Source of the DNA: Candidatus Absconditabacteria bacterium
GTDB taxonomy: Bacteria > Patescibacteriota > Gracilibacteria > Absconditabacterales > Absconditicoccaceae
Reading direction: 5' to 3'
DNA: 64,000 nt
NCBI GenBank assembly: GCA_028685875.1
Contig: JAQUDD010000002.1
Span: forward strand, 62,001-126,000
Shown here: positions 3,653 through 53,517 of the stretch, one piece after another
Numbering within the stretch: the first letter of the stretch is position 1
Layout of the letters: each line of letters starts with the position of its first letter
Position numbers and translations under genes: made by a program
Notes under the pieces: model-generated
The model's database searches: none
Seen by the model: the letters and a program-made list of their open reading frames with translations, nothing else
What the model was told of the DNA's origin: nothing

Positions 3653-3813
3653 ATCTTTTGTATTATGTTGTTTATGTTTTATTCTCTCCTAATATAAATA
3701 TCTTTATGATAAAGTCAAATTAAATTTGATTTGCAAAAAGTGGCACAATTTCTATCTTATAGTCCATTATCACTTTGTGAGGTATTACTACTTTATTTTT
3801 TTGGATATAAATA

Positions 3814-5496
3814 ATGGCAAAGAAATTCTATGTAACAACACCGATTTATTATGCGAATGGATTACCTCATATTGGGCACGCAAATAGCTCTTTCATCGCT
3901 GACTTTTATGCAAGATACAAAAGATTGCTCGGGTATGAAGTAAAATTTGCTACAGGACTTGATGAAAATGGACAGAAAATGGTAGAGAAAGCAGAAAGTG
4001 AAGGAAAGCAGATTATGGAATTTCTTGATGAGATTGCTGAGGGATCGAAAGAAATCTGGAAGGAATTGGATATTACGTATACGGATTTTATCAGAACCAC
4101 AGAGGCGGACCATCATGCCTTTGTACAAGCACAGCTTCAAAAGATTTATGAAAAAGATAGGATCCCCCTTACGAAGGGGGGAAGCGAAGCAGGGGGTTCG
4201 GATAGCGAGACTGGATTGCTTCGTTCCTCGCAATGACAAAAGAAGGATGATATTTATCTCGGGGAATATGAAGGATTATACTGTGTGGGATGTGAGGCCT
4301 TCAAAAATCCTAGAGATTTAACGCTAGATGGGCTTTGTCCGGATCATTTGACGAAGCCGGAGATTATTCGTGAAAAGAATTGGTTCTTTAATTTGAAGAA
4401 GTATGAGTATGTGTTCAAGAAGCTTTGGGAGGGAAATCCTCACTTTGTGGAGCCAGGACATAGATTTAATGAGGTGAAAGCTTTTGTGAATTCTGGATTA
4501 GAAAATTTTTCTATTTCGAGAGAAAATAAGCATACGGGGATTGGGATTCCATTACCTCGGGATAAGGAACAGATTACTTATGTCTGGTTTGATGCGCTAT
4601 TTAACTACATCACGGTGTGTTATAGAAATGAAGAAGAAGGGAAATTCTGGAGTGATGGTGCAGAGATCCTGCATGTACTGGGGAAAGATATTGTGAAATT
4701 TCATGCAACCTATTGGCCTGCGATGCTAACTTCTGCTGGATTTAGGCAGCCAGATAGAGAATTTGTGACGGGATATTTGACGGTGGATGGACAGAAAATG
4801 TCCAAGACAATCTGAAATGTCGTGGATCCTGTGAAAGTAGCGAGAGATTATGATAGAGATGCTCTGCTTTTTTATCTTTTGTATGATGTGGCAATTGGAT
4901 TGGATGGAGATTTCTCTTGGGAGAGATTTCAGGGAACTTGGGAAAAAATGCTGATTGGGGGGCGAGGAAATCTCGTGAATAGAGTTGCGAATTTGGGGAA
5001 GAAGTATGGAGTGACAAAGGGGAAATTTGATGAGAAGAGGTTTGGAGAATTTTTGAAAAAAGAAGAGATGAAAGCAGGTGAAGAATCTTTATTTTCTGGA
5101 TTGCTTCGCTTTGCTCGCAATGACATAGAAGAAGGATATTTGCAGAATGCAAATACCAAGAGATATTTGGAGGATTGGTATAGCTTGGTGCAACTTGCGA
5201 ATGAGTATATCACCAAGGCTGAGCCTTGGAAAAAGTATAAAGAAGAAACTACGAAACAGGAAGCTATTGAAGATTTAGAGTTTTTGCTTTGGGTGATTAA
5301 ACAGCTGGGATTATTGTCCGCGCCTTTTTTGGTGAATGGGTTTGCAAAGTTGCAGAAGATTTTGGGGAATCCAAAGATTAGTGCGATTGATAGTAGCAAG
5401 AATGTGATGCATGAGGGATTTGTGGAAGTGTTTGATGAGCAGGAGTTTGAGGTAAATTTGGATCCGATGATTATGTATGAGAGGAAAGAGGTTTAG
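3814..5496 (+). CDS. metG: Methionyl-tRNA synthetase
   Basis: 560 aa class I synthetase that charges tRNA-Met. The HIGH motif is at residues 19-22 (GLPHIGH). A Cys-rich knuckle CVGCE...LCPDH follows, and KMSKT is at about 328-332, directly followed by Ile, a UGA-encoded Gly at 334, then NVVDP, exactly the family pattern. The other UGA lies at 4234-4236. Two palindromic repeats are inserted in frame: residues about 116-142, just before DIYLGEYEG, and about 428-438, in the C-terminal helical domain. Both are absent from the usual family alignment. Without UGA recoding the gene would look like three broken pieces. Start ATG 3814 gives the canonical KKFYVTTPIYY N-terminus. Confidence 0.96.
4158..4237. 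repeat. Palindromic repeat element inserted in frame in metG (copy A)
   Basis: Two adjoining palindromes: CCCCCTTACGAAGGGGG, then a GATTGCTTCG...CGCAATGAC hairpin whose arms ATTGC and GCAAT recur in other copies of this window. It adds about 27 residues to MetG and keeps the frame; its last part is read through a UGA as Gly. Similar to the repeats at 5096-5125, 29592-29679, 30086-30136, 34905-35076 and 52748-52830. Confidence 0.75.
5096..5125. repeat. Short palindromic repeat in frame in metG (copy B)
   Basis: GGATTGCTTCG followed by GCTCGCAATGAC; arms ATTGC and GCAAT. It is read as GLLRFARND within the C-terminal domain of MetG, in the same frame as the start of copy A (GLLR). Length is compatible with an in-frame insertion. 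Confidence 0.65.
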
Positions 5497-27455: not shown

Positions 27456-28783
27456 AAGAACAATCACAAAAGACTAAGCTCGAACTTCGCGGAAATGTGG
27501 ATGCACGAAAGGCGAGAGTAAATAAACGATGGGATAAAAAATTCCCAAAACCAAGTATGGACTTACCAAGTGATCATCTTGTTGTTGAGAAGCAGGCACT
27601 TGAAGAAAGAAAAGTTTTCAACTCCAAGAGAATGTTTATCTTTTGGGGGATTGCGCTCTTGATGGTGTTTGTAGGATATATTTTCTTCAATAATCTCTCG
27701 ATGATCTTTATGGTAGTAGCGGCTTTTATTATGTCGCTTGCGCTTGAGGGATTGGTACTCTTTTTTCAAAGGCTAATAAAAAGTAGAGGCCTTTCTATCC
27801 TGATTTCTTATCTGTTATTGATTCTTTTTCTCCTTTCAGGATTCTTTATTATTATTCCGTTTTTACTCTCTTGGGGATCACAGATTTTACAGATGGGGAT
27901 CAGCGCTTTGCAAGGGATTCATAGCGAAATCCTTACTTTAGGAATTGATGGATATATTAATCAGATTTCTCGATTACCTGAATTTTTCAAAGAGAATCTT
28001 CTCCAATACATTAATAAAACTTCCTCTGCAACACTCTTACAGAGCATCTCTGATAATCTAGGGAATATTATCAATACTTCTAGCTGATATCTCAAAATTC
28101 TAGGGAATTATGCCATGAATTTTTTCGGTGGAATCTTCTCTTTTGTTTTTAACTTAGTGATCCTTTTCACACTTTGTGTTTTCTTCTCTCTTTCTCATTA
28201 CGATGTAAAATATGCATGAAAATATCTCTTAAGAAATATCAAAAATAGTAAGCAAAAGATTGATGATGTATACGGTGGAATCTCTGCTTGGCTCAAATCT
28301 CAGTTCCTTTTGTGTGTATTTATTGGGATTGCCTCTTTGCTCGGACTTTCGCTCTTAGAAATCATTGGTATTTCTATTCCTCAGAAAGGAGAACTTGCAC
28401 TACTTGCAGGGCTCTTTGAGATTATTCCGTATCTTGGACCTTGGCTTGGAGCAATTCCAGCAGTATTGTTAGCGCTGGTATCTGCAGGACGGAAAGGAGT
28501 ACTTGCTGTTGGAATTCTTTATATTTGTATCCAGCAATTTGAAGAAAAAATTCTCGTCCCTGTAGTAATGAATAAAACGCTTGGACTCAATCCCTTACTC
28601 GTATTTCTGAGTATGCTCTTTGGAGGATTAATTATGGGATTCTATGGAGTGGTCTTAGCCGTTCCTCTGGCGGTGATTCTCTCTATTGTCTTCAAAGTTC
28701 CTGAAAAGGGAGAAGACGAATTTTCCGAAGAACCTAAAAAGCCTCTCTCAACAAAAACTTCCAAAACCCCAAAGAAAAAATAA
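27440..28783 (+). CDS. AI-2E/PerM-family membrane permease
   Basis: 447 aa, two UGA codons. A basic N-terminal tail precedes about seven membrane helices. The family signatures are present: a long extracellular helical segment between TM 3 and 4, the pore region GLFEIIPYLGPWLGAIPAVL (about 334-353) and ALVSAGRKGVLAVGILYICI, then VMNKTLGLNPLLVFLSML. Such permeases export small molecules; the substrate is unknown. The C-terminus is Lys/Ser-rich and cytoplasmic. It overlaps rnpA by 16 bp and is followed by a murF-like gene after 17 bp, suggesting one transcript. Confidence 0.88.
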
Positions 28784-28800
28784 TTCTGACTTTATCATGC

Positions 28801-30288
28801 ATGATCCCTATGAAACAGAAAGTCTTGCTCATCTATTATCGTATCCTTATTTTCTTTGCACATCGCCATCTCTCACGCCACAAACCAAAAGTTATCGGCA
28901 TCAATGGAAGTGTAGGAAAGACCTCTTGTCGCATGATCATTTACCAGACATTAGAACAGTATTTTCCTAATCTCAAGATCTACACTTCCCCAAAGAACTT
29001 TAATGGAGAGCTCGGACTTTCTCTCTCTGTATTGAAAATCGAAGAGCGAACGCCTTCTCTTCGATGTATGTTCAAAACATTTTGGATCAGCTTTTTCCGC
29101 TGATGTTTTGGAAAGAAGGAATACGATATCGTTGTCCTCGAATATGGAATTGACCGTCCAGGAGAAATGGATTTCATTCTCAAGGTCGCACATCCTGATA
29201 TCGGAGTATTTACTGCTATTGACGCGGTGCATAGTGAGCAGTTTGGTTCCCCTGCCGAAATCGCTAAAGAAGAAGTCAAAATGGCTCTCCATACTAAAGA
29301 GCTCGTCTTTCTCAATCATGATGATAACTATGCGATGGAACTCCTTCCTCGCATCGAAGTGGACAAACTAACCTATCAAACCAAAGGCTATGATGAAGAT
29401 GCAGATATTTCTTTTTCAGAGAGTGAGTTCATCCTCGGAGGGGCTTCTCATGAAATCAAATCAGCTTTCACACTCGATATCAAAGGCAAAAAATATCAAA
29501 TCATTACCAATCTGATCGGAAAGGCAAATTATGGCTATATCGGAGTAGCGTTCGCCGTTGCTGAAACCCTCGCTTATCAATCTTTAACCTTGTCATCCTG
29601 AACGAAGTGAAGGATCCAGTCTAAGGAAAAGGACAAAAATCTGGATTCTTCGCATGCACTTCGTTTTGCTCAGAATGACAAGATAGAACTCAATTACCAA
29701 CTCCAACCTGGTCGTCTTTCTATCTTCGCAGGGAAATATGATTCCATCATCTTTGATTCCACCTATAACGCAAGTCCCCTCAGCATGAGAAAGACTATTG
29801 ATACCGTGCTCACTATCCGCAATGCGCTTTTCCCAGCTTCTGAAATCCGACTTATTCTTGGAGATATGAGAGAGCTCGGAGATTTAACTGAGAAAGAGCA
29901 TAGACTGCTCGCAGGATATGTTTCTCAGTCAGCGGATAAACTCTTCCTCCTTGGAGATTCGATGAAAAAATATCTCGCCGATGAGATAGAAAAATGCTGA
30001 TTTGATAGCTCTAAGTTCTTCGTCGCAAACAATCTTAAAAGTCTGAATAGCGAGATTGAACAATTGTTGAAAAACCTTCCTGCTAAAAACCCCCTCTCCC
30101 GCTGAAGCGGGACCTCCCCCTCTCAGGGGAGAAAAATAGCTCCTCCTCTACTCGTCTTCAAAGGCAGTCAAAATACTATTTTTCTGGAAGAATCTGTGAA
30201 ACATTTTCTTGCAAACGAGAAAGATGCAAAACTCCTTACTAGACAGGGAGAGTTTTGGGAGGAGAAGAAGAGAGAATTCATAGCATAG
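28801..30288 (+). CDS. MurF-like Mur ligase family protein
   Basis: 495 aa. Mur ligases add amino acids or dipeptides to the peptidoglycan precursor with ATP. P-loop GINGSVGKTSCR lies at residues 33-44. DIVVLEYGIDRPGEMDFI and FTAIDAVHSEQFGS match the MurF central domain (usual form: EmG....Gei). The C-terminal ligase domain has FDSTYNASPLSMRKTID and LILGDMRELGD, as in MurF. The N-terminal MurNAc-recognition domain is replaced by a short hydrophobic helix, so this is a MurF-like variant, perhaps membrane-bound. Two palindromic repeats are inserted in frame (residues about 264-293 and 429-446), both containing UGA codons. Confidence 0.85.
29592..29679. repeat. Palindromic repeat inserted in frame in the murF-like gene (copy C)
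   Basis: Outer arms GTCATCCTGAACGAAG...GGATCCAG (29592-29619) and CTGGATTCTTCG...CAGAATGAC (29641-29679) form a long imperfect hairpin. Two TGA triplets in the left arm are read as Gly. Same element as at 52748-52830. Confidence 0.8.
30086..30136. repeat. GC-rich palindromic repeat in frame in the murF-like gene (copy D)
   Basis: CCCCTCTCCCGCTGAAGCGGG and CCTCCCCCTCTCAGGGG form nested hairpins. One TGA is read as Gly. Base composition differs sharply from the AT-rich surroundings. Related to the first half of copy A. Confidence 0.7.
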
Positions 30289-34904: not shown

Positions 34905-35076
34905 ATCTGGATTGCTTCGCAAGCTCGCAATGACAAGAGTCATCCTGAGTGCAACGAAGGATCTATGTTTAAATTTCCTTTTTTATCTGGATTCTTCAGC
35001 TTCGCTTCAGAATGACAGGGTTTTCTAGATTGCTTTCCCACTGAATACGGGCGCGGTGAAAGCTCGCAAGGACAGA
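34905..35076. repeat. Cluster of palindromic repeats between genes (copy E)
   Basis: Four adjacent units: GATTGCTTCG...CGCAATGAC (34905-34935), inverted GTCATCCTGAG...GGATCT (34939-34973), CTGGATTCTTC...CAGAATGAC (34985-35018), and a decayed GATTGC...AGGAC (35026-35076). Same family as the copies inside metG, the murF-like gene and mnmA. The stretch 34829-35114 holds no gene. Confidence 0.75.
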
Positions 35077-52359: not shown

Positions 52360-53517
52360 ATGAAGAAAGAAAAAATATTAATCTGATTAAGTGGTGGAGT
52401 GGACTCAGCAGTAGCTGCTGCTCTCCTTTTGCAACAAGGATATGAAGTGGTAGGAGGATTTATGAAAAACTACATATCAGACACAGGGAACTGTACCACC
52501 TACAAAGACGCCGAAGAAGCGATTAAGGTAGCAAATCATTTGGGGATAGAACTCCTCTCTTTTGACTTACAGAAAGAATATCAAGAAAGAATTATTGACT
52601 ATATTTTTGATGGATACAAAAAAGGGATTACTCCAAATCCTGATGTACTATGTAATAGCTTGATCAAATTTGATGTCTTTTTGGAAAGAGCGATGGAGAT
52701 GTGATTTGATAAGATCGCTACCGGTCATTATGCAAGAATTTCAGATCGTCATACTGAATGAAGCGAAGCGAAATGAAGTATCCAGAGAGAAAAGCGAAAT
52801 CTGGATTCTTCACTCCGTTCAGAATGACAGGATACTCCCTACCAACTCCTCCGTTGAGTAGATCATAACAAGGATCAATCCTATTTCCTTGCGGGACTTA
52901 ATCAATACCAACTCTCCAAAAGCCTTTTCCCTCTTTGAGGACTGGAGAAGGGCGAGGTAAGGGAACTGGCAAAACAATTTACTCTCCCGAATGCAGAAAG
53001 AAAAGATAGCCAGTGACTTTGTTTCATTGGGAATGTTCCCATCAGAGAATTTTTACTCCAAAGATTTAAGAAGAAGGAGGGAGATATCATCACTCTGGAA
53101 GGGAAAAAAGTCTGAACTCATCAAGGAGCATATTTTTATACCATCGGACAAAAACACGGACTTGGTTTGAATTTTAAGGCTTATGTGTATCGCATTGATA
53201 TTAAGAATAATATTCTCTATGTAACTGATAAGGATAATAAAGAACTTCAATCAAAAAGTCTGATTGCAAAGGATTGGCACTGGATAGACGAGTCTATCAG
53301 GATTCAGAAACAGGATACTACTAAGCACCTGAATACCCTCTACTGTACAGGGAAGATTAGGTATCGTCAAAATCCTCCTGTTGCTTGTACTTTGGAACTA
53401 AGGGAAGAGAGAATAATGGAAGTTATTTTTGATGATCCTCAACGGGCAGTTGCACCAGGACAGGTTTTTGTTGCTTATGATGGAGAGGTCTGTCTGGGAA
53501 GTGGCATTATTGGATAA
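52360..53517 (+). CDS. mnmA: tRNA-specific 2-thiouridylase MnmA
   Basis: 385 aa, eleven or so UGA codons. MnmA thiolates U34 of tRNAs for Lys, Glu and Gln. PP-loop LIGLSGGVDSAVAAALL, the first Gly being UGA; catalytic Cys in NPDVLCNSLIKF; IATGHYARI; VDHNKDQSYFLAGL; second Cys in KDSQGLCFIG. A palindromic repeat is inserted in frame between ATGHYARI and LLRGVDHNKDQSYFL (about residues 130-157), a loop where other MnmA proteins have only a few residues. Sulfur would come from the SufS product. Start ATG 52360 gives the normal N-terminus. Confidence 0.95.
52748..52830. repeat. Palindromic repeat inserted in frame in mnmA (copy F)
   Basis: Arms GTCATACTGAATGAAG...TATCCAG and CTGGATTCTTC...CAGAATGAC (52801-52829) form a long imperfect hairpin. 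Three TGA triplets inside are read as Gly. Nearly the same element as copy C. Confidence 0.8.

Follow-up and report, generated by a model that had tools for sequence, protein, structure and literature searches.

An 83-bp insertion, called copy F here, interrupts the mnmA gene of the source genome, and we consider it fairly probable that it is a non-autonomous, selfish CGTC/TGTC-tagged REP palindrome, which landed in a permissive loop of the encoded enzyme, is translated with it and would have been spread by a small GIY-YIG nuclease. The gene and the insertion have the following layout within the window, by which we mean the whole 64,000-nucleotide stretch of DNA that was analysed.

52360 to 53517, plus strand: mnmA (tRNA 2-thiouridylase), 385 aa under code 25, with nine TGA codons read as Gly and the domains PF03054/PF20259/PF20258.
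52747 to 52829, plus strand: copy F, CGTC/TGTC-tagged REP inverted dimer, in frame in mnmA, reading RHTEGSEAKGSIQREKRNLDSSLRSEGQ.
52747 to 52783, plus strand: left REP unit of copy F, CGTC tag at the outer end, terminating in ATCC; tag, AT and CC(A) tail match the published description (PMC3733652).
52803 to 52829, minus strand: right REP unit of copy F, inverted, TGTC tag on the minus strand, terminating in CC.

Copy F (CGTCATACTGAATG...GTTCAGAATGACA) lies between the ATGHYARI and NKDQSYFL motifs of MnmA within the 385-aa frame and adds about 27 residues to the protein, three of which are UGA-encoded Gly (G134, G139 and G156 in the code 25 translation). Both the position and the three TGA codons had been claimed in an earlier note on this DNA, and the observation is real. 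Calling copy F nearly the same as another repeat of the window, its copy C, was an overstatement, as the best relatives in the window match in the arms only, over 29-35 bp at ~90%, and their middles differ. Peptides predicted for the MnmA protein include NLDSSLR and SEGQDTPYQLLR. The RNA fold of copy F is better than those of 200 out of 200 shuffled sequences (z -3.8), and its DNA fold exceeds 199 out of 200 (z -3.7). The REP half-site pattern matches six times in the window, against 0.00 expected from 100 shuffles; further copies are listed here.

29591 to 29680, plus strand: another complete element, lying in frame within a murF-like ligase gene (ORF 28738-30285), with two TGA codons.
5104 to 5125, plus strand: half-site lying within metG (methionyl-tRNA ligase, ORF 3811-5493), in frame and free of TGA (LRFARND).
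34938 to 35019, minus strand: element copy found by pattern match and, in the coding-frame scoring, not called in-frame coding.

We take TGA to encode Gly in this genome (G000), judging from ORF coverage and conserved Gly positions. In sampled stretches, ORF cover rose from 0.50 under code 11 to 0.86 under code 25, and in two code-25 relatives (G003 and G027) it rose from 0.07 to 0.82-0.83. A scan covering 26% of the genome turned up no tRNA-Gly(UCA). The genome uses its reassigned codon unusually little, with TGA making up 0.9% of codons versus ~4.4% in G003 and G027, again in sampled stretches. Three TGA codons among the 28 codons of the insert are a high number for this genome, as expected of DNA that has not evolved as a gene.

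By its tags, first stem pairs and tail, copy F is a variant of the CGTC-tagged REP superfamily described by Di Nocera et al. in 2013, which includes RPE-6 and RPE-4 of R. conorii and for which no adjoining transposase or dedicated mobilising enzyme was found (PMC3733652). RPEs are short palindromes lying in frame in unrelated conserved genes, with which they are translated (PMC10969869; PMC3733652). The outer tags of copy F are CGTC at 52747-52750 and, on the minus strand, TGTC at 52829-52826, in keeping with the CGTC (or TGTC/CCTC) found at one end of such REPs, and the units run CGTCAT..ATCC and TGTCATT..AATCC, with AT/AT first stem pairs and a CCA-type tail. We file the element as a variant because a consensus-like unit folds with 5 bp, a 2x2 mismatch, 2 bp and a 3-nt loop, unlike the published stem of 8-9 bp with a loop of 4-5 nt; a classic REP unit beside a GIY-YIG gene on a plasmid forms 9 bp. 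The pairs of the half-site hairpin covary, inner pairs included, being Watson-Crick in 143/182 and 127/182 cases versus shuffle maxima of 112 and 115. An Rfam search returned nothing other than a tRNA, and a literature search by sequence string gave nothing relevant.

The half-site TTCRYTNYRYTCRSRATGAC occurs in 79 exact copies in the source genome, with none for the reversed control, and in 91 of 380 genomes of the phylum (reversed pattern, 1/380); it is also present in many other phyla. The source genome further contains tandem REP arrays at C11:25630-26637 and C11:34292-34824, with a period of ~96 bp and up to ~11 units. We scored 384 elements, comprising 123 from code-25 genomes (G000, G003 and G027, all of one family), 97 from code-11 CPR genomes (G124, G217, G238, G227 and G094) and 164 from other phyla; the genome-wide counts rest on stretches around pattern matches in the eight CPR genomes. 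An element was called in frame, on statistical grounds, if the sequence on either side of it and the element itself all had coding potential in a single frame. In-frame elements numbered 28/123 in code 25 (12/54 in G000, 8/28 in G003, 8/41 in G027), 11/97 in code-11 CPR (4/24 in G124, 3/20 in G217, 4/24 in G238, 0/23 in G227, 0/6 in G094) and 1/164 in other phyla (119 loci). The share was higher in code 25 than in code-11 CPR (Fisher p 0.033) and higher in code-11 CPR than in other phyla (Fisher p 1e-4), both tests treating as independent elements that are in fact related. The hosts in the source genome are clpB, valS, metG, an elp3, rlmD, the murF-like gene, hsdR and mnmA. The same ValRS site near PHVTEEIYQE is occupied in both G000 and G124 (the latter host named by eye), and G217 and G238 share an occupied site following NKLWNISRFIL (hosts named by eye).

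The earlier note had proposed that reading UGA as sense opens additional frames of the repeat and had asked for an excess of in-frame insertions. The excess is present relative to code-11 CPR and absent relative to random placement, as 52-67% of random windows per genome (~60% overall) scored as in-frame coding, compared with 23% of the code-25 elements; the similar random-window rates across genomes make in-frame detection comparable. Exclusive use of TGA-free frames, which the note had named as the contrary outcome, was not observed: TGA is read as Gly within 21 of the 28 code-25 in-frame elements, versus one third expected by phase (p ~8e-6), and within 14 of the 21 elements with a single detected half-site (p 0.002). 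The favoured frame in code 25 is mostly '..DSSLRSEGQ', which contains a UGA-encoded Gly and is probably preferred for the hydrophilic peptide it gives; the most hydrophobic frame, FFTPFRMT, is used neither in code 25 nor in code-11 CPR. In-frame elements of code-11 CPR read VILNxVK, GHPERSE or LRSAQND and never use a TGA frame. As judged from these frame counts, UGA reassignment is adding a frame to the repeat, which is then preferred.

A stronger form of the proposal would make reassignment the main cause, with in-frame repeats tolerated where UGA is sense and not in code-11 bacteria. The prevalence of TGA frames speaks for it, as does the fact that the surplus of code 25 over code-11 CPR lies wholly in these frames. 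We nevertheless consider it unlikely, because 11/97 elements are in frame in code-11 CPR, for example in ValRS- and TsaD-like genes (identified by eye), because code 25 shows no higher share of in-frame elements free of TGA (7/123 versus 11/97) and because Rickettsia RPEs lie in frame under the standard code (PMC10969869). In-frame insertion is thus, by our scoring, not unique to code 25, and a tolerance possibly common to CPR seems to matter no less than the code (11/97 versus 1/164). The note's idea is therefore borne out in part, for the added frame, with the comparison itself confounded by phylogeny since the three code-25 genomes belong to one family.

Among possible movers of CGTC REPs, a GIY-YIG gene makes a good candidate. 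Twice, a small GIY-YIG gene lay between two half-sites that stood far apart, once in a CPR genome and once in Nitrospina, and many GIY-YIG genes lie within ~130 bp of a half-site, in a sample biased by the choice of loci. For an unbiased test, we collected loci by protein alone and parsed 28 CPR loci, of which 24 carry YGTCAT on the upstream and ATGACR on the downstream side, compared with 8/242 positions drawn at random from these loci and 1/57 DUF559 loci. Across 380 genomes, a strong GIY-YIG match was found in 44/52 genomes with at least three half-sites versus 60/328 of the rest (p 8e-21); 27 of the 91 half-site-positive genomes lack one. The source genome's own GIY-YIG gene (C11:34851-35129) sits inside a dense repeat cluster. 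On plasmids, inspection revealed REP flanks, including perfect CGTC REPs, at about 8 of 11 GIY-YIG loci, in Rhizobium, Shinella, Sinorhizobium, Aeromonas, Novosphingobium, Sphingobium, Azospirillum and Planktothrix, and no such flanks at the loci of Photobacterium and one Rhizobium. The Azospirillum sufB-sufC site is free of the insert in close relatives, and the Sphingobium fnrL site carries in close relatives a solo REP, no REP or REP-GIY-REP. A GIY-YIG gene between inverted REPs, which we propose as the definition of a GIY-YIG REPtron, is thus the arrangement at the 24 CPR and about eight plasmid loci. We infer that the nuclease may cut and mobilise REPs, the flanking being an association that would also arise if the REPs acted as terminators or were targets. 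We found no report of GIY-YIG together with REPs in the open-access papers searched; one may exist elsewhere.

Mobilisation of the repeats by a RAYT, the Y1 HUH transposase that serves GTAG REPs, is by comparison quite improbable. Y1_Tnp has a weak genome-level association with the repeat (OR 2.4 in the 380 genomes), but the source genome holds the most repeats in the sample with no Y1_Tnp match over the cut-off, its weak match looks spurious, and no transposase adjoined CGTC REPs in the published survey either (PMC3733652). DUF559 was likewise rejected as a partner of the CGTC repeat, with 0/80 domains within 400 bp of a half-site; it accompanies other palindromes.

DUF559 (PF04480) ORFs themselves lie in frame in conserved genes, in the source genome at C11:17680-17991 (L098) and C11:57302-57610 (L097), and elsewhere at L061, L062, L063, L067, L311, L312, L324, L325, L330, L489, L495 and L496. 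Their hosts, read by eye, are LeuRS, RimO, MnmA, LepA, Tgt, Fmt, Elp3, TsaC and RibE, and they are often bracketed by CCCTCTCC/GGAGAGGG palindromes in inverted orientation. Such in-frame ORFs occur in both code-25 and code-11 CPR; we found no paper on them. A RimO-like gene carries the DUF559 insert at C11:57302 in the source genome (L097) and a CGTC-type REP dimer in G027 (C19:4078-4154, L231), which looks like one permissive site shared by two element families.

The loop of MnmA was described in the earlier note as variable, and comparison with relatives bears this out: it has 45 aa here versus 18 aa in several insert-free relatives. Aligned to E. coli MnmA (PDB 2der), the query matches up to residue 129 and resumes at 160, and just three residues separate the matching stretches in 2der, which places copy F at a tight turn. 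Relatives carry a REP trimer (G003), a REP dimer in a different frame (G008), CCCCTCTT palindromes, that is CCCTCTT palindromes (G002, G004 and G006), or whole DUF559 nuclease ORFs (G009, G021, G023 and G048). The loops of G028 (L044) and G019 (L046) contain further repeat-like insertions, AAAGTCAAAAATCAAAAGTC and AACGCAAAAACGATAAAACG. A long loop in several relatives might suggest that the insert is an extension kept by selection for a function and not the scar of a selfish element, yet from one relative to the next the inserts have neither sequence nor frame nor kind in common, and further relatives lack an insert altogether, so that we regard selection for function as very improbable. Least likely of all is a pseudogene or assembly artefact: the exact insert is known from one assembled genome only, but the mnmA frame is full-length and single-copy with conserved motifs, aligns to 2der on both flanks of the insert, and other assemblies too have insertions in this loop.

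The favoured explanation, a translated selfish REP, would then work as follows. A non-autonomous inverted REP dimer inserts into the permissive mnmA loop and is translated with the gene; it would be tolerated for a length that is a multiple of three, an exposed site and a hydrophilic peptide. In code-11 bacteria a UGA stop would shut the favoured frame, D-S-S-L-R-S-E-Gly-Q, which would stay open here. Spread would start from a small GIY-YIG nuclease gene enclosed by a pair of inverted REPs, through DNA cleavage and repair copying in a homing-like manner, solo REPs and dimers being passengers of this element. We put at about even odds the broader proposal that CGTC/TGTC REPs, Rickettsia-type coding palindromes included, are passengers of a widespread single-gene GIY-YIG element moving by homing-like cut-and-repair, and that UGA as a sense codon makes more of their frames readable as flexible peptides, thereby letting them colonise essential genes. 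Of our findings, none is more novel or more testable than the link to GIY-YIG, and it offers a candidate for the question left open in 2013 of what moves CGTC REPs. The same palindrome, found in different frames in code-25 and code-11 CPR, also amounts to a natural experiment in which the effect of an altered code on the fate of selfish DNA can be followed, and the loops of MnmA, ValRS, LeuRS, RimO and Elp3, which repeatedly take foreign peptide, are useful for protein engineering and for the annotation of CPR proteins.

Copy F shares with CGTC REPs the CGTC/TGTC tag followed by AT, the CC(A) tail, inverted dimers and occasional intragenic copies, and differs in its half-site stem (5 bp plus an inner 2 bp with a 3-nt loop, versus 8-9 bp), in its abundance in CPR and in its link to a GIY-YIG gene. 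Like RPEs, among which RPE-4 and RPE-6 are assigned to the same superfamily, it is inserted in frame in a conserved gene; unlike them, it is shorter, lives in a different host group and is read with UGA as sense, its commonest frame being one that a UGA stop would close. The arrangement of a small nuclease gene between inverted palindromes, with many solo copies, recalls the GTAG REP-RAYT systems (REPtrons), from which it departs in having GIY-YIG in place of the Y1 HUH transposase and a CGTC/TGTC tag. Free-standing GIY-YIG homing endonucleases share the DNA-cleaving nuclease fold and the capacity to be copied into a target, in contrast to which the putatively active gene described here is associated with no intron and is flanked by REP hairpins.
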